This document shows positions 41,569 through 58,333 of a DNA stretch of 58,333 bases, one piece after another. Position 1 is the stretch's first letter. Every line of letters begins with the position of its first letter. A model generated the notes under the pieces. The model was given only the letters and a program-made list of their open reading frames with translations, was not told the DNA's origin and did no database searches. A program made the translations under genes and the position numbers. Origin of the DNA: Clostridia bacterium (GTDB lineage: Bacteria > Bacillota > Clostridia > Christensenellales > QALW01); assembly GCA_017502165.1 (NCBI GenBank), contig JAFVVO010000003.1, positions 1 through 58,333 of the forward strand, in the 5' to 3' direction.

Positions 41569-42744
41569 ATGAGCAAAAAGAAAATTTCGGTTTTTACCGT
41601 AGTGTTAACAGCATTAATCAGCTTTACCTGCGGTTTTTTAGTAAATAGCTATGCGGGCCTGGGCGTTGTGGGAGGAGTGTTTAACCTAAAGCAGTTAAGT
41701 ATTCTCACAACTGTAGGAAAGATAGTGTCTTCTTATTCCATTGACGAACAAAACGGGGATACGGTTCTTGATTATGCCCTTAAGGGCGTTGCCGCAAGCC
41801 TTAACGATCCCTATGCCGCGTATTTGACGGCTGAAGAGGTGGAAGAATTTAACCGCTCTACTCAGGGAATCGTTCAGGGAGGAATTGGTTGCACGCTGTT
41901 TCAGTATGACGGTAAAAATTATATTTCCCAGGTGTATAAAAATTTCGGCGCTGAAAAGGCGGGAATTAAAGCGGGAGATATTATTATTGCGGCAGACGGC
42001 CAAAACGTTGAAAATAAAAGCGTAAGTGAAATTTCCGAGCTTATTCTGGGTGAACCCGAAACTACGGTTAAGATTGACGTTCTGCGCGGGGATAAAAAGC
42101 TTTCCTTCGTTGTTGAAAGAAGTGACGGACAAAGGCAAATGACTGAGTATCAGCTTCTTGAAGGCAACCTGCTTTATGTTAAAATTCACGCGTTTCGAGG
42201 AAATGCCGCGGAATATTTTGAAGAGGCAATAAATTTTGCAAAGGAAAAGTCGGTTAAAGGACTGATAATTGATTTGCGCGATAATCCCGGAGGCGAGGTT
42301 AATTGCTTTGCTCAAATGGCAGATATTCTTTTGCCTGAGGGCGAATTCTTCTACGGGTTGACCAGAAACGGTGAAAAGGTTAATCCCTGCACGTCTGATG
42401 CGGAATTTTTTGACGTTGACGTAAGCGTAATTGTTAACGGCAACAGCGCAAGCGCCTCAGAGGCTATGGCAGGGGCACTCCGTGACATGATAGATGCCGA
42501 GATAGTAGGCACGAAAACTTACGGCAAGGGCGTTATGCAACGTTCCTACAGCTTAACCAACGGCGGAATGTTTAGGCTGACGGTGGCAAAATATTATCTG
42601 CCGAGCGGTGAATGCATTGAGGGTGCAGGTATTGAGCCTGAGCATAAGGTAGAGCTTCAGGATAATCTTGAAATAGAAACCTGGCGGCTTAATTCGGAAA
42701 ATGACCTGCAGTTGAAAAAAGCTATAGAGGTATTGACAAAATAG
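41569..42744 (+). CDS. S41-family C-terminal processing protease (CtpA/B-like)
   Basis: A 391-aa membrane-anchored protease: N-terminal helix (5-28), PDZ domain (about 100-185, GIGCTLFQYDGKNYIS and AGIKAGDIIIAADGQ) and an S41 catalytic core with VNGNSASASEAMAGAL (289-304; Ser295 the likely nucleophile) and TYGKGVMQ (Lys320). These enzymes trim proteins outside the membrane; Bacillus CtpB works in sporulation signalling. ATG 41569 follows AGGTGATTTA. The gene follows the PucR-type gene by 4 nt. Its end overlaps the promoter of the riboswitch-like leader. Confidence 0.9.
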   Translation: MSKKKISVFTVVLTALISFTCGFLVNSYAGLGVVGGVFNLKQLSILTTVGKIVSSYSIDEQNGDTVLDYALKGVAASLNDPYAAYLTAEEVEEFNRSTQGIVQGGIGCTLFQYDGKNYISQVYKNFGAEKAGIKAGDIIIAADGQNVENKSVSEISELILGEPETTVKIDVLRGDKKLSFVVERSDGQRQMTEYQLLEGNLLYVKIHAFRGNAAEYFEEAINFAKEKSVKGLIIDLRDNPGGEVNCFAQMADILLPEGEFFYGLTRNGEKVNPCTSDAEFFDVDVSVIVNGNSASASEAMAGALRDMIDAEIVGTKTYGKGVMQRSYSLTNGGMFRLTVAKYYLPSGECIEGAGIEPEHKVELQDNLEIETWRLNSENDLQLKKAIEVLTK

Positions 42745-42761
42745 AAAAAATCTTTTATTAT
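42733..42761 (+). promoter_or_regulatory. SigA promoter of the TM1266-ABC leader
   Basis: TTGACA (42733-42738), 17 nt, TATTAT (42756-42761), overlapping the S41 stop codon. Confidence 0.85.
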
Positions 42762-42767
42762 ATAGGT

Positions 42768-42906
42768 AATCAAAGTGAAGGACGCGTTCTGACACGGAGA
42801 GAAAATTAACCGCATCTGAAAACGAGGTTTCGTACTGAGTTTAAGTAAATGGAAATAAAAGTGTTTTTAATTCTCTTTACTGCTTTTGCGGTGAAGAGAA
42901 TTTTTT
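42768..42906 (+). promoter_or_regulatory. riboswitch-like leader with terminator before the TM1266-ABC operon
   Basis: A consensus promoter is followed by ~100 nt of leader and then a 15-bp terminator (42869-42883 with 42888-42902, TTTT loop, T6 at 42901-42906), then the RBS GGAGG of the first gene. The upper part contains candidate stems, among them TTCT/AGAA around GACACGGAG and AAAC-GAG-GTTT at about 42830. AGTAAA (42845-42850) can pair with TTTACT of the terminator's left arm, a possible anti-terminator contact. This layout is typical of ligand-controlled attenuation. I cannot match it to TPP, FMN, purine, ykkC, SAM or other classes. Confidence 0.65.
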
Positions 42907-42919
42907 ATTTGGAGGTACA

Positions 42920-43183
42920 ATGGAAAACAGAATCGGTGTTATCGGGATTGTGGTTGAAGATCCCAAAAAATCGGCTGATACGGTTAACGAGCTTTTAAGC
43001 GAATTTTCCGATATTATTATCGGAAGAATGGGTATACCGTATCAAAAGCGTTCAGTTTGCATTATTTCGGTTACCGTTGACGGCACAAATGAGAGAATCG
43101 GCGCCCTTTGCGGTAAGCTTGGCAGATTGGACGGCGTAAACGCTAAAAGCGTTCTTTCATCAAAAATATATAAAGGAGAATAA
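42920..43183 (+). CDS. TM1266-family ACT-like regulator (NikR C-terminal-like)
   Basis: An 87-aa protein: NRIGVIGIVVEDPKKSADTV, NELLSEFSDIIIGRMGIPYQ and GALCGKLGRLDGVNAKSVLS are typical of TM1266, an ACT/NikR-C fold annotated as the putative regulator of the iron-only hydrogenase system. No hydrogenase gene is nearby; it heads an ABC operon instead. ATG 42920 follows GGAGGTACA. Its role in this operon could be ligand sensing or regulation of the transporter. Confidence 0.82.
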   Translation: MENRIGVIGIVVEDPKKSADTVNELLSEFSDIIIGRMGIPYQKRSVCIISVTVDGTNERIGALCGKLGRLDGVNAKSVLSSKIYKGE

Positions 43184-43185
43184 AA

Positions 43186-44190
43186 ATGAAAAAACTTGTA
43201 GCTATCTTTTTAACCTTATTACTTTTTGTATTTGCAGGCTGCTCTCAGTCTCCTGCTGACGTTACGCCTACGCCTGACGCGCCCCAAAACACACCCACGG
43301 CAGAGGCGTACGTTGGAATCGATATAAATATCGGTGCGTTAAAGGGCCCCACAGGAATGGGCTTTTCAAAGCTTATGACTGATGCTCAAAATAATAAAAC
43401 CGCTAATAATTACGACATTGAGCTTTTTGCCAATCCCACGGATATTCCTGCACTTTTGAAAAAGGGCGAGCTTGATATTGCGGCAATTCCTACGAACCTT
43501 GCGGCTAACCTTTATAATAAAAATAACGGAAACGTTCAGCTTCTTGCTCTTAATACTCTGGGTGTTCTGTACGTTCTTGAAAACGGAAATACCGTTAACT
43601 CTATTAAGGACCTTGAGGGCAAGACGGTTTATGCCTTCGGTAAGTCGGCAACTCCCGAATATGCTCTTAAATACGTGCTTAAGCAGGAAAACGTTAACTG
43701 TGAGCTTGAATTCTTTGATGCTGAAACACTTAACACCATGGCCATGAAGGAAGAGGCGGATATTATGCTTGTGCCCGAGCCTCAGGTTTCAATTATTACT
43801 ACGCAGAATCCTAAATACAGAGTTGCTCTTGATTTTAACAAGGTTTGGAACGAGGCTTGCGATAATTCCGCACTTTTATCAATGGGTTGTCTTGCAATAA
43901 GAAAGGATTTTGCTCAAGAAAATCCTAAGGCAGTTGAAAAGTTCCTTGAGGAGTATTCCGCATCCGTTGCATTCGTTATTTCTAACGTTTCGGAAGCCGC
44001 TTCAATGATCGAGAGTCTTGGAATAGTTCCCAAGGCGGCTATTGCTAAGAAGGCAATTCCCAACTGCAATATCGTTGCGATTTACGGTGATGATATGAAG
44101 GAAAAAACTAAGGCATTTTTACAAATTTTATTTGAAAGTGAGCCTGCATCAATAGGTAATGCAGTGCCCGGTGAGGATTTCTATTATTAA
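43186..44190 (+). CDS. ABC transporter substrate-binding lipoprotein
   Basis: A 334-aa lipoprotein: signal peptide with lipobox FAGC (C19) and a type 2 periplasmic-binding fold (IGALKGPTGMGFSKLMTDAQ, KKGELDIAAIPTNLAANLY, LNTLGVLYVLENGN, GKSATPEYALKYVLKQ). The GALKGPTGMG pattern belongs to the NMT1/THI5-like/sulfonate-type group of importers; precise substrate unknown. The RBS AAAGGAGAA lies at the end of the TM1266 gene. With the permease and ATPase it makes a complete importer under the upstream leader. Confidence 0.85.
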   Translation: MKKLVAIFLTLLLFVFAGCSQSPADVTPTPDAPQNTPTAEAYVGIDINIGALKGPTGMGFSKLMTDAQNNKTANNYDIELFANPTDIPALLKKGELDIAAIPTNLAANLYNKNNGNVQLLALNTLGVLYVLENGNTVNSIKDLEGKTVYAFGKSATPEYALKYVLKQENVNCELEFFDAETLNTMAMKEEADIMLVPEPQVSIITTQNPKYRVALDFNKVWNEACDNSALLSMGCLAIRKDFAQENPKAVEKFLEEYSASVAFVISNVSEAASMIESLGIVPKAAIAKKAIPNCNIVAIYGDDMKEKTKAFLQILFESEPASIGNAVPGEDFYY

Positions 44191-44953
44191 AAACGAAGGA
44201 TTAAAAAAGACTTTAATTACTGTTTTGGTGGCAATATTCTGGATTGCAGTGTGGCAGGGAATTTACTTACTTGTTTCTGACGACCTGATTATTGCTTCAC
44301 CGATGGCAGTGCTTAACAGAATATTTGTTTTAGGCGCAACGAAAGATTTTTGGTTGGCGGTGCTTTACAGCGTTTTAAGAATACTTTTAGGCTTTATTTC
44401 GGGCGTTGTGTTTGGCGTTTTAATGGCGTCACTTTGCGCTTCAAGACTGCTTAATCAGCTGTTTGCACCCATTATTCTGCTTATTCGCGCTACGCCCGTG
44501 GCTTCCTTTATTATGCTTACGTGGCTTTGGCTTAAGCGTGATTCCATACCCGTTTTTGTGTCGTTTTTGATGGTTGTGCCAATAGTTTGGGGCAACGTGG
44601 CGACGGGAATTAAAGGCGTGGGCAAGGAATATAAGGATTTTGCCAAAATGTACAAAATAACGGGAATGAAGAAAATAAAATATTTATTTATTCCCAGCGT
44701 TTTGCCGCACTTTGCGTCCGCGGTGTTTACAAGCGCAGGCCTGGTGTGGAAGGCGGGGGTTGCGGCAGAGGTTCTCTGTCAGCCAAAGATTTCTATCGGC
44801 TCAAATCTGTTTGATGCCAGAAGCTTTCTTGATACCCTTGACGTTTTTGTGTGGACGGCAGTAATTATTATCATAAGTCTTATTTTAGAAAAAATAATAA
44901 AAACTCTATTAAAGCAAATTGAAAAGAAATTTGCTATAGCAGGTTTAACATGA
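44159..44953 (+). CDS. ABC transporter permease
   Basis: A 264-aa membrane protein with six hydrophobic segments and the EAA-type cytoplasmic loop (GIKGVGKEYKDFAKMYKITG), typical of BPD_transp_1 permeases of the nitrate/sulfonate/taurine (TauC/SsuC) family. It overlaps the end of the binding-protein gene by 32 nt if ATG 44159 is used. GTG 44171 is an alternative and no good RBS distinguishes them. Its stop overlaps the ATPase start (ATGA at 44950-44953). Confidence 0.88.
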   Translation: MQCPVRISIIKNEGLKKTLITVLVAIFWIAVWQGIYLLVSDDLIIASPMAVLNRIFVLGATKDFWLAVLYSVLRILLGFISGVVFGVLMASLCASRLLNQLFAPIILLIRATPVASFIMLTWLWLKRDSIPVFVSFLMVVPIVWGNVATGIKGVGKEYKDFAKMYKITGMKKIKYLFIPSVLPHFASAVFTSAGLVWKAGVAAEVLCQPKISIGSNLFDARSFLDTLDVFVWTAVIIIISLILEKIIKTLLKQIEKKFAIAGLT

Positions 44954-45501
44954 TAAGTATTAAAAATTTACGGGTAAAATTCAAGGATACCGTTATTGAG
45001 AATTTTAACCTTGAAATAGAGAAAAACGGCATTTATTGCTTGTTTGCGCCCTCGGGGGCAGGCAAAACAACCTTGTTAAATGCCGTAAGTAAGCTTATAA
45101 AATTTGAGGGTGAAATTAAGATTGACGGAGAGATCAGCTATCTGTTCCAGGAGGACAGGCTTCTTAATTGGTTTTCTGCAAGAGAAAACATAATGCTGGT
45201 TGAGCCCGACGAAGAAAAGGCTGAATATTATATGACTGTGTTCGGTGTAGACGAGTTCGCGGATAAGAAGCCTCAAGAGCTTTCCGGCGGAATGAAGCGC
45301 AGGTGCGCCCTTGTCCGCGCCCTTGCCTTTAAGGCGGATGTTTATCTTTTAGATGAGCCCTTCAGAGGACTTGATGAGCAGAATGCAGACCTGGTGCGCA
45401 AAGAAATAATTGAGCTTGGTAAAGAAAAAATCGTTATTGTGGTAACTCACGACGAGCTTGATTTAGAGAAGCTTAACGCACAGAGAATTACCTTGAATTG
45501 A
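44950..45501 (+). CDS. ABC transporter ATP-binding protein
   Basis: A short (183 aa) ABC ATPase with Walker A APSGAGKT (33-40), Q-loop FQEDRLLNW, signature LSGGM (111-115), Walker B VYLLDEPF (131-138) and switch His in VTHDE. It energises the adjacent permease, as in TauB/SsuB-type importers, but lacks their C-terminal extension. It starts inside the permease stop codon. Its 3' end overlaps the convergent gene at 45488 by 14 nt, and no terminator follows in between. Confidence 0.9.
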   Translation: MISIKNLRVKFKDTVIENFNLEIEKNGIYCLFAPSGAGKTTLLNAVSKLIKFEGEIKIDGEISYLFQEDRLLNWFSARENIMLVEPDEEKAEYYMTVFGVDEFADKKPQELSGGMKRRCALVRALAFKADVYLLDEPFRGLDEQNADLVRKEIIELGKEKIVIVVTHDELDLEKLNAQRITLN

Positions 45502-46293: not shown

Positions 46294-46338
46294 AAAGCTC
46301 TATTGACAGAAAAACTGTAATAGAGCTTTACTTTTTGT
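46294..46338. terminator. bidirectional terminator
   Basis: AAAGCTCTATT (46294-46304) pairs perfectly with AATAGAGCTTT (46319-46329) and encloses a small ACAG/CTGT stem. Confidence 0.8.
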
Positions 46339-47468
46339 TAAAGACTTTTTGCTATTTTTTCTATTGCGTTTAAGGTGGTGAAGATTTCTTTTTCTGTGTT
46401 AAAGATGCCTATGCTGAGCCTGACGGCACCTTGAGCTTGGGTGTTGAGAAATTTATGAACCAGCGGCGCGCAGTGAAAGCCGCCTCGGGAGGAAATACAA
46501 AACTGCTTATCGAGCACCTGAGAAATAACGTTAGAGTCGATATCGCGAACGTTAAAGGCAACGACACCGCTTTTTGCCTGCGAAGGAGAATAAACGGTAA
46601 CGCCCTTAATTGAGTGCAAGCCATTTATCAGCAGGTTGGCAAGCCTCGTTTCGTGAGCGTAAATTTTCTCTCTGTTTGCCTGCACAAAGCGGATTCCCGC
46701 TTCTACAGAGGCAATGTTTTGAACAGACATAGTGCCGCTTTCGAGATATTCAGGCATATCCTTCGGCTGAACCAAATCAAAGGATTTGCTTCCCGTTCCG
46801 CCAAATCGCAAGGGAGTTGGAAGCGGGGCGGAGGGGGAAATTGCCAAAATGCCGATTCCTTGGGGTCCGTAGAGACCTTTGTGGCATGCGCAACACAGAT
46901 AGTCAACGTGACAGTCGATTTTCTGAACGCCCGCACCCTGAGCACAGTCGGCTATCAAAAGCAAATTTCTTTTTGCACAAAGCTCGCTTATTTCCTTTAG
47001 GTTTTGAACAAAGCCCGTTACGTTGGAAACGAAATTTACGATAATTGCTTTCGTGTTCTTTTGAATTGCATTCTCAAAGCTTTCAATTCTTATTTTTCCG
47101 TCATCTTCGGGAAAAAGCACCGTATAATCGAGCCCGGAATTTGTTTTCATATATTCTAAAGGCCGAAGTACAGAGTTATGCTCGTATGCGGTGGTTATTA
47201 CGTGGTCATTTTCTGAAAAAAGTCCTTTTATAACTAAGTTTAACGAATCTGTACAACCAAACGTGAAAATTACGTTTTCTGTCTTTTCTATATTTAAGAA
47301 TTCAGCGGCGGCGCAGCGGGCAGAATATATGATTTCCGCCGCTTCTACCGCAGGTTTGTGTCCGCTTCTGCCTGCATTGGCAGAATAATATCTAAAAACC
47401 TCGTTGCTGCGCAGATACACTTCAGCCGGCTTTCTCAGTGTAGTGGCAGCATTGTCAAGATAAATCAT
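46338..47468 (-). CDS. EF2568-type aminotransferase class V (cysteine desulfurase-like)
   Basis: A 376-aa PLP enzyme: MIYLDNAATTLRKP, NAGRSGHKPA, the PLP lysine K197 in CCACHKGLYGPQGIG and the C-terminal GGFHCAPLVHKFLNT with the sulfur-accepting Cys. The 'HCAPLxH' block separates this EF2568-like subfamily from housekeeping IscS. The subfamily is linked to selenium or labile-sulfur traits. ATG 47468 follows GGAGCTATTT; an upstream ATG at 47501 lacks one. It is divergent from the DUF3343 gene, its usual partner. Confidence 0.85.
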   Translation of the reverse strand: MIYLDNAATTLRKPAEVYLRSNEVFRYYSANAGRSGHKPAVEAAEIIYSARCAAAEFLNIEKTENVIFTFGCTDSLNLVIKGLFSENDHVITTAYEHNSVLRPLEYMKTNSGLDYTVLFPEDDGKIRIESFENAIQKNTKAIIVNFVSNVTGFVQNLKEISELCAKRNLLLIADCAQGAGVQKIDCHVDYLCCACHKGLYGPQGIGILAISPSAPLPTPLRFGGTGSKSFDLVQPKDMPEYLESGTMSVQNIASVEAGIRFVQANREKIYAHETRLANLLINGLHSIKGVTVYSPSQAKSGVVAFNVRDIDSNVISQVLDKQFCISSRGGFHCAPLVHKFLNTQAQGAVRLSIGIFNTEKEIFTTLNAIEKIAKSL

Positions 47469-47537
47469 AAATAGCTCCATCTGCTTAAATTTGCTGCACA
47501 TAATATTATATTAAAATTTTTATTCGGAGGTTACATT

Positions 47538-47862: not shown

Positions 47863-48984
47863 ATGATTTATGCCGATTATGCGGCAACCACACCGCTTGA
47901 TAAAAGAGTTTTAGATAAAATGATGCCGTATTTTTCCGCAGAATTCGGTAATGCTTCAAGCTTGCACGAGGCAGGCAGAAAATGCGCCAATGCGGTGGAA
48001 AATGCAAGGCAGGAAATTGCAAGCATTATAAATGCCGATAAAAATGAGATTTATTTTACCTCCGGCGGAACGGAAAGCAATAACTGGGCGTTATTCGGCG
48101 TAGTGACGAAAGAAAAAAATCATATTATTACTTCAAGCATTGAGCATCATTCCGTCCTTAATGCCTGCAAGGAGCTTGAAAAAAGAGGCTGCACGGTTAC
48201 ATACGTTTCTGCAAATGAATCGGGAATAATTGATGCAGATGAAATTTTGAAGGCGATAACGCCGCAGACGGCGGTTATTTCCGTTATGGCGGCTAATAAT
48301 GAAATAGGAACTGTTCAGCAAATTAAAGAAATCGGCGCTATTGCAAAGAAAAACGGAACTTATTTTTTCACCGATGCAGTTCAGGCTATGGGCAAAATGC
48401 CCATTGACGTTAAAGAAATGAACGTTGACCTTTTAAGCGCTTCGGCACATAAGTTTTTCGGCCCCAAGGGCGTAGGTTTTTTGTATGCTCGCAAGGGAAT
48501 TAACCTTAATAACGTGTTTTACGGCGGTTCTCAGGAACGCGACAGACGTCCCGGCACACTTAATGTTCCCGGTATTATTGGAATGGCAGAGGCCCTTAAA
48601 ATTCAGATAAAAGAGCAAAAAGAGAGAGAAGAAATAGAAAAACGGCTTACAAAAATCATTAAAGACATCGTTTTTGAAAAGCTTTCGGGTGTTATTCTTA
48701 ACGGAGATGAAAACAAGCGTTTAAGCGGAAATCTTAATTTCAGCTTTGACGGAATTTCTGTTGTGGGTCTGACGATGCTTCTTGATTTAAGCGGTATTTA
48801 CTGCTCTGCAGGCGCCGCCTGCTCTTCGGGAAGCGTAACCTCATCGCATGTGCTTGAAAGCATAAGTAACGGCAAAGTCAAAGAAGGCTTAAGAGTTTCG
48901 GTAAGCTACCAAACTACTGAAGAAGAAGCAAAAATTATTGGCAATTCAATAGTTGAAAACGTAAATAAAATGAGAAATAAATAA
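47863..48984 (+). CDS. cysteine desulfurase NifS/IscS family
   Basis: A 373-aa PLP enzyme: YADYAATTPLDKRVL, EIYFTSGGTESNNWALFG, the PLP lysine K197 (SASAHKFFGPKG) and persulfide Cys C320 in CSAGAACSSGSVTSSHVL. It takes sulfur from cysteine for Fe-S clusters or thio-modified tRNA. In many Clostridia nifS is followed by a U-type scaffold or thiI/mnmA; none is seen here, as a terminator closes the transcript at 48987. ATG 47863 is preceded by GGAGAATAATT. Confidence 0.92.
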   Translation: MIYADYAATTPLDKRVLDKMMPYFSAEFGNASSLHEAGRKCANAVENARQEIASIINADKNEIYFTSGGTESNNWALFGVVTKEKNHIITSSIEHHSVLNACKELEKRGCTVTYVSANESGIIDADEILKAITPQTAVISVMAANNEIGTVQQIKEIGAIAKKNGTYFFTDAVQAMGKMPIDVKEMNVDLLSASAHKFFGPKGVGFLYARKGINLNNVFYGGSQERDRRPGTLNVPGIIGMAEALKIQIKEQKEREEIEKRLTKIIKDIVFEKLSGVILNGDENKRLSGNLNFSFDGISVVGLTMLLDLSGIYCSAGAACSSGSVTSSHVLESISNGKVKEGLRVSVSYQTTEEEAKIIGNSIVENVNKMRNK

Positions 48985-58104: not shown

Positions 58105-58333
58105 TTGAGTAGGTTGGATGACTGCGGTGAAAATACGAGGAAAGTCCGAGCTTCACAGAGCAGGATGCCGGATAACGTCCGGTGGAGGCGACTCTAAGGA
58201 AAGTGCAACAGAGATATACCGCCGCATTGCTTTACTTTTGTATTGAAGCGCTTTGCGCTGCCTATGCGGTAAGGGTGGAAAGGCGAGGTAAGAGCTCACC
58301 GACCGTTATGGCGACTTAACGGTCCTGTAAACC
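58105..58333 (+). ncRNA. rnpB: RNase P RNA, 5' part (cut by the window end)
   Basis: The conserved type A features are present: GAGGAAAGTCCGAGCTTCAC (CR-I/P4 5' strand), ACAGAGCAGGATGCCGG, GGAAAGTGCAACAGAGATAT and ACCGCCG, and later GTAAGGGTGGAAAGGCGAGG with TAAGAGCTCACCG. RNase P RNA cleaves tRNA 5' leaders. A TATACT -10 lies at 58093-58098 with a poor -35, giving a start near 58105. The 3' P4 strand and terminator lie beyond the window. Confidence 0.95.

Follow-up and report, generated by a model that had tools for sequence, protein, structure and literature searches.

The leader of the TM1266-ABC transporter operon described here is best read as a member of an undescribed cis-regulatory RNA family that controls supply of the [FeFe]-hydrogenase H-cluster. 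We give this whole explanation, a cis-acting RNA switch outside Rfam tied to the H-cluster, a probability of about 0.6. The operon lies in the window, by which we mean the entire 58,333-nt stretch that was analysed (Clostridia bacterium; Christensenellales; QALW01; GCA_017502165.1, JAFVVO010000003.1, positions 1-58,333, forward strand). The reading draws on computed conservation, covariation, antiterminator complementarity and gene contexts, and on the absence of maturases at family cut-offs. Control of H-cluster supply would probably act on synthesis in some lineages and on import here. To our knowledge, little is known about the regulation of [FeFe]-hydrogenase maturation, and the family, if correctly interpreted, would be dedicated to it.

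A sequence scan and profile matches confirm the arrangement given in the first-pass annotation: a promoter, a leader of ~100 nt, a 15-bp terminator with T6, a ribosome-binding site and the TM1266 gene (Table 1). The promoter (TTGACA-17-TATTAT, 42733-42761) agrees with the consensus at 11 of 12 positions, and transcription is expected to start at ~42767-42769. The TM1266 gene begins with ATG at 42920; its product scores 110 bits against TIGR03959 (cut-off 60.8) and 108 bits against PF21699, and is a relative of the solved structure 2nzc. The 900 bases scanned hold three terminator-like sites where 0.8 would be expected; a terminator pattern by itself is therefore little proof. The segment 42764-42865 is not unusually stable relative to shuffled sequences (z about +2; -1.9 with the terminator). 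Minimum-energy folding of the leader alone (~42767-42868) is uninformative, being no better than for shuffled sequence, and the predicted helices vary among relatives. The leader cannot thus be judged from a single sequence, and the case must rest on comparison.

Table 1 Leader elements and genes of the TM1266-ABC operon in the window.
Feature	Position	Strand	Details
-35 box TTGACA	42733-42738	+	Inside the 3' end of the upstream S41 peptidase gene, overlapping its final codons; also present in L002 and L003
-10 box TATTAT	42756-42761	+	Promoter scan
Hairpin module 1 (partial), GUG-AAGGACGCGUUCUGA-CAC	42775-42795	+	Flanked by CAAA (42771-42774) and GGAG (42796-42799)
Hairpin module 2 (full consensus), CUGA-AAAC-GAGG-UUUCGU-ACUGA-GUU-UAAG	42816-42845	+	Strict pattern, R1 and R2; P2 pairs 42821-42823 with 42839-42841
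Antiterminator 5' strand AGUAAA	42844-42849	+	Overlaps the closing UAAG of module 2
Antiterminator 3' strand UUUACU	42876-42881	+	Within the terminator 5' arm
Intrinsic terminator	42869-42906	+	Stem 42869-42902, 15 pairs, 4-nt loop, -20.2 kcal/mol; T6 at 42901-42906
Ribosome-binding site GGAGG	42911-42915	+	Sequence
TM1266-family protein, 87 aa, putative [FeFe]-hydrogenase system regulator	42920-43183	+	TIGR03959, PF21699
ABC transporter substrate-binding lipoprotein, NMT1/MqnA-like	43186-44190	+	Profile matches; weak relative of 3hn0
ABC transporter permease	44159-44953	+	PF00528; start codon uncertain, listed start overlaps the preceding gene
ABC transporter ATPase	44950-45501	+	PF00005

The whole layout, from the -35 box through TM1266, is conserved in two genomes of the same genus, L002 and L003. 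The P2 stem of module 1 reads GUG/CAC in the window, GUG/CAU in L002 and AUG/CGU in L003. That of module 2 is AAC/GUU in the window versus AGC/GCU in L003, with one mismatch in L002, a comparison of three sequences only. The terminators of both relatives differ from that of the window, yet in each the segment behind the second hairpin complements its own terminator 5' arm. The resulting pairings are AGUAAA/UUUACU in the window, CAGGUAAAG/CUUUACUUG in L002 and UUAAGGG/CCCUUAA in L003; such two-sided changes that preserve pairing are what an antiterminator would predict. When the window RNA is folded only to position 42884, where the first arm of the terminator has just been made, the minimum-energy structure includes the AGUAAA/UUUACU pairing. 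Hairpin and antiterminator overlap little in the window, by about 2-4 bases (42844-42845). Beyond the genus, a DNA similarity search matches the genes and leaves the leader unmatched.

Comparison of ~146 TM1266 leaders yielded a covarying hairpin module, CUGA-[P2]-AAAGG-loop-CUGA-[P2']-AAAGG. The commonest form in the order, group A (22 leaders), has the consensus AACCUGAAUCGAUGA-loop-UCGGAGAGUAAG and a covariation score of.281 versus.129 after shuffling (0/500 shuffles as high), and its pairs also outperform slid controls. For a hydEFG-type set of 29 members, from which the window was excluded, the score is.598 versus.192 (again 0/500), and as many as four Watson-Crick types occur at P2 positions; in both sets the leaders are related to one another and several of the genomes are metagenome bins. 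The strict pattern, CUGA-P2-RAGG-loop-CUGA-P2'-NAAG with paired P2, occurs in 32 of 144 TM1266 leaders, the window among them (42816-42845), as against about 0.2 per shuffled set. At least two P2-RAGG-loop-CUGA-P2' units are present in 9 of 146 leaders versus 0.2 in shuffled ones, including the window (42775-42795 and 42821-42841); both patterns were written after the leaders had been inspected. First units analogous to module 1 are seen in L258 (CAG/CUG) and L203 (CGG/CCG). The strict pattern fails in L002 and L003 although their layout is kept, and a two-domain alignment of the family f4 leaders was too poor to model.

The shared hairpins also bear on attenuation by a translated leader peptide, MKDAF (GTG-AAG-GAC-GCG-TTC-TGA, 42775-42792), which we regard as very improbable. 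A possible mini-ORF, GTGAAGGACGCGTTCTGA, does occupy 42775-42792, and L002 retains its codons apart from a synonymous GAC-to-GAT change. It contains no run of regulatory codons and lacks a good ribosome-binding site, in L003 the frame runs on without an early stop, and what the other family leaders have in common is hairpins, not a peptide.

Two covariance models were built without the window, R1 from group A and R2 from the 29-member hydEFG-type set; their E-values are rough. R1 matches the window at 42805-42859 with a modest 20.1 bits (E.035 in 167 kb). R2 gives its best score within the leader at the second hairpin (9.5 bits, E.011 in 186 nt) and has no significant match in a scan of the 58-kb window. 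The second hairpins of L002 and L003 go undetected by R1, and with R2 only that of L002 scores (11.5 bits, E 4.1). Across the order, R1 matches 42 of 297 genomes, at one site each; 30 of these loci were fetched, and TM1266 followed by the binding protein lies downstream in 28, the other two being cut by contig ends. No R1 match was found in 291 genomes of the wider class outside the order. R2 matched only twice in 199 genomes of the phylum and is thus specific but insensitive: one match precedes hydE-hydG (L268), and the other lies in a coding frame and was judged false. We place the window in the TM1266/hyd leader family with good but not complete confidence because pattern, synteny and mechanism agree, though the model scores are weak.

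In the 34 leaders in which a terminator could be recognised, we scored how well the hairpin's 3' end can pair with the terminator arm of its own leader. The scores sum to 546 units; swapping terminators among leaders gave 427 +/- 17 and never reached that value (0/5000), a contrast that relatedness among the leaders inflates somewhat. In this set the terminator of the window ranks second of 34 for complementarity to its hairpin 3' strand. This complementarity indicates a switch that would act on transcription termination. Were the region instead a chance hairpin-rich spacer, with a terminator that serves only against background transcription, its aptamer part might be expected to fold no better than shuffled sequence, as it does; covariation, compensated antiterminators and the motif counts make such a lack of regulation very improbable. 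Homologous operons thus do conserve leader structure, as layout in L002 and L003 and as covariation in two leader sets, where its lack would have spoken against the earlier description of a riboswitch-like leader of unknown class. That description is supported by the covarying hairpins, the common antiterminator/terminator logic and the absence of an Rfam match. A small-molecule effector, which the term riboswitch implies, is a candidate alongside a protein such as TM1266.

In the proposed mechanism, the two tandem hairpins of the common module would form the sensing part, a role that we infer for them. With no signal, AGUAAA would pair with the terminator 5' arm and block the terminator, so that TM1266 and the transporter genes are transcribed. 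With the signal present, the hairpin would be stabilised and its closing UAAG held, the terminator would form, and transcription would end near 42906. The switch is thus probably OFF when the hairpin is stabilised, a direction deduced from the pairing scheme. The same RNA family would control TM1266-hydE/G/F operons in other Firmicutes and an ABC importer here.

The gene contexts link the family to TM1266 and the maturase genes. The window leader directly precedes TM1266. In other Firmicutes TM1266 heads operons with hydE, hydG, hydF or aspartase (aspA), whose leaders carry the module and a terminator; all four genes are connected with H-cluster assembly (for aspA, PMC11736057). The RNA and terminator of L268 stand directly before hydE-hydG with no TM1266 between, and L193 has one copy before TM1266 and a second before hydG, so that the RNA appears to track H-cluster maturation and not the transporter. 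Most of the 396 genomes sampled from the order encode an orthologue of the binding protein. A strong motif marks the leaders of operons that begin with TM1266, and it is absent from transporter leaders with a Crp/Fnr-like regulator or another gene upstream instead. A Crp/Fnr-type regulator often replaces TM1266 before the transporter (L018, L033, L040 and others), and these leaders are motif-free. We initially supposed that a riboswitch accompanies the transporter, and gave this up on account of these leaderless orthologues. By gene context, the family follows TM1266 and the hydEFG genes, not the transporter. The earlier suggestion that the RNA ligand may equal the transporter substrate is still possible but is not implied, because the leader is missing from TM1266-less transporters and present at hydEFG operons without a transporter.

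The genome of the window encodes a complete group A6 [FeFe] hydrogenase (L293:7358-9115, G000 contig 12; NF040763, 906 bits) with the motifs TSCSPGW, MPCTAKK and EIMCCPGGC..GGGQP. HydA was found in all 18 genomes compared (that of the window and 17 others of the order), and HydE, HydF and HydG each exceeded their family cut-offs in none of them; in HydG-positive genomes of the same order HydE scores >250 bits. HydG is missing from 157 of the 189 hydrogenase-bearing genomes of the order in this sample, absence being judged on genomes that are 70-99% complete. The binding protein is present in 118 of these 157 versus 10 of the 32 HydG-positive hydrogenase genomes (Fisher p 4e-6, not corrected for descent). 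In four genomes (L080, L081, L085 and L087) the gene for the orthologous binding protein immediately follows a group A6 hydrogenase gene, without TM1266. In Lachnotalea glycerini (L220:600-5933) the orthologous ABC transporter directly precedes TM1266-hydE-hydG-hydF. These findings are consistent with import of a substance that the H-cluster requires, and the place of the RNA family before the maturase genes elsewhere suggests that the transporter helps bacteria lacking HydEFG to obtain the metal centre. Of 56 binding proteins compared, 91% share cysteine C294 with the one encoded in the window. Near the operon, genes that resemble class V aminotransferases (cysteine desulfurase-like) lie at 46338-47501 (-) and, putatively, at 47863-48984 (+).

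The leader might instead be a plain transporter riboswitch for an ordinary nutrient (a thiamine precursor, a sulfonate or a nucleobase) with no link to the hydrogenase, as the NMT1/MqnA/SsuA-like binding protein could suggest. This is improbable, since the module also precedes hydE/F/G operons that lack any transporter, and the transporter orthologues adjoin HydA or TM1266-hydEGF. For the H-cluster-linked switch, the signal would most likely be a compound or state tied to an H-cluster precursor made elsewhere by HydEFG, because the family heads hydE/G/F operons in other lineages and an importer here, in a HydEFG-less genome. A more specific form of the proposal is doubtful: the RNA would sense the HydEFG product itself (the iron-carbonyl-cyanide H-cluster precursor), the transporter would import the precursor or part of it from neighbouring microbes, and HydEFG-less gut bacteria would mature their [FeFe] hydrogenase by salvage. 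If the broader proposal is right, sharing of one RNA by hydEFG operons and an importer hints at how many hydrogenase-bearing gut bacteria without known maturases may get their H-cluster.

It is also conceivable, if rather unlikely, that the effector is a protein. TM1266, which is small, ACT/NikR-C-like and encoded by the first gene, would then bind the hairpins and autoregulate termination. Ribosomal proteins and PyrR autoregulate through leader binding. TM1266 adjoins the RNA in all 28 complete R1 loci, the TM1266-less transporter orthologues have no leader, and R1 matches are limited to one site per genome. The protein has no known RNA-binding domain, and TM1266 does not adjoin the RNA before hydE-hydG in L268 or the second copy before hydG in L193. 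Both of these genomes still encode TM1266, which leaves room for a protein effector.

The window leader has no match at the Rfam 15 gathering scores and none that convinces at E up to 10; no family fits the leaders of 50-odd related loci at gathering or loose thresholds. In the part of the literature covered, no paper dealt with TM1266 regulation or with a hydE/hydG leader RNA. In its working the leader resembles a terminator-type riboswitch or a protein-bound leader. The TPP riboswitch (RF00059) likewise is a single RNA family that precedes biosynthesis or transporter operons depending on lineage, often acting through a terminator, and the leader fragment CC-UGA..GGG recalls the TPP pyrophosphate arm, which we take as a lead only. 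The leader, however, has no TPP match and lacks the two-arm TPP junction; in L179 and L241 the TPP matches belong to distinct elements on the opposite strand. Guanidine-II (mini-ykkC) RNAs likewise consist of two small hairpins of similar form, set in tandem upstream of the expression platform, but their conserved letters and loops differ, and the leader is without an Rfam match. The PyrR site (RF00515) and the L10 leader (RF00557) share the autoregulatory arrangement in which the first gene of the operon may be the effector. Both match the window weakly and with poor inner alignment (22.4 bits against a gathering score of 54, and 22 against 44), and RF00515 was rejected as the identity of the leader on its score.

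TwoAYGGAY RNA (RF01731) is another clostridial structured RNA, and its copy in L185 sits behind a leader with CCUGA-type units. It is nevertheless a different element in a different place, with no match in the window or the other leaders. The L185 copy (1841-1906, 46 bits) lies between TM1266 and an aspartase gene, a possible link of an orphan RNA to hydrogenase maturation. At the far end of the window a bacterial class A RNase P RNA begins at 58106 and runs off the edge at 58333.
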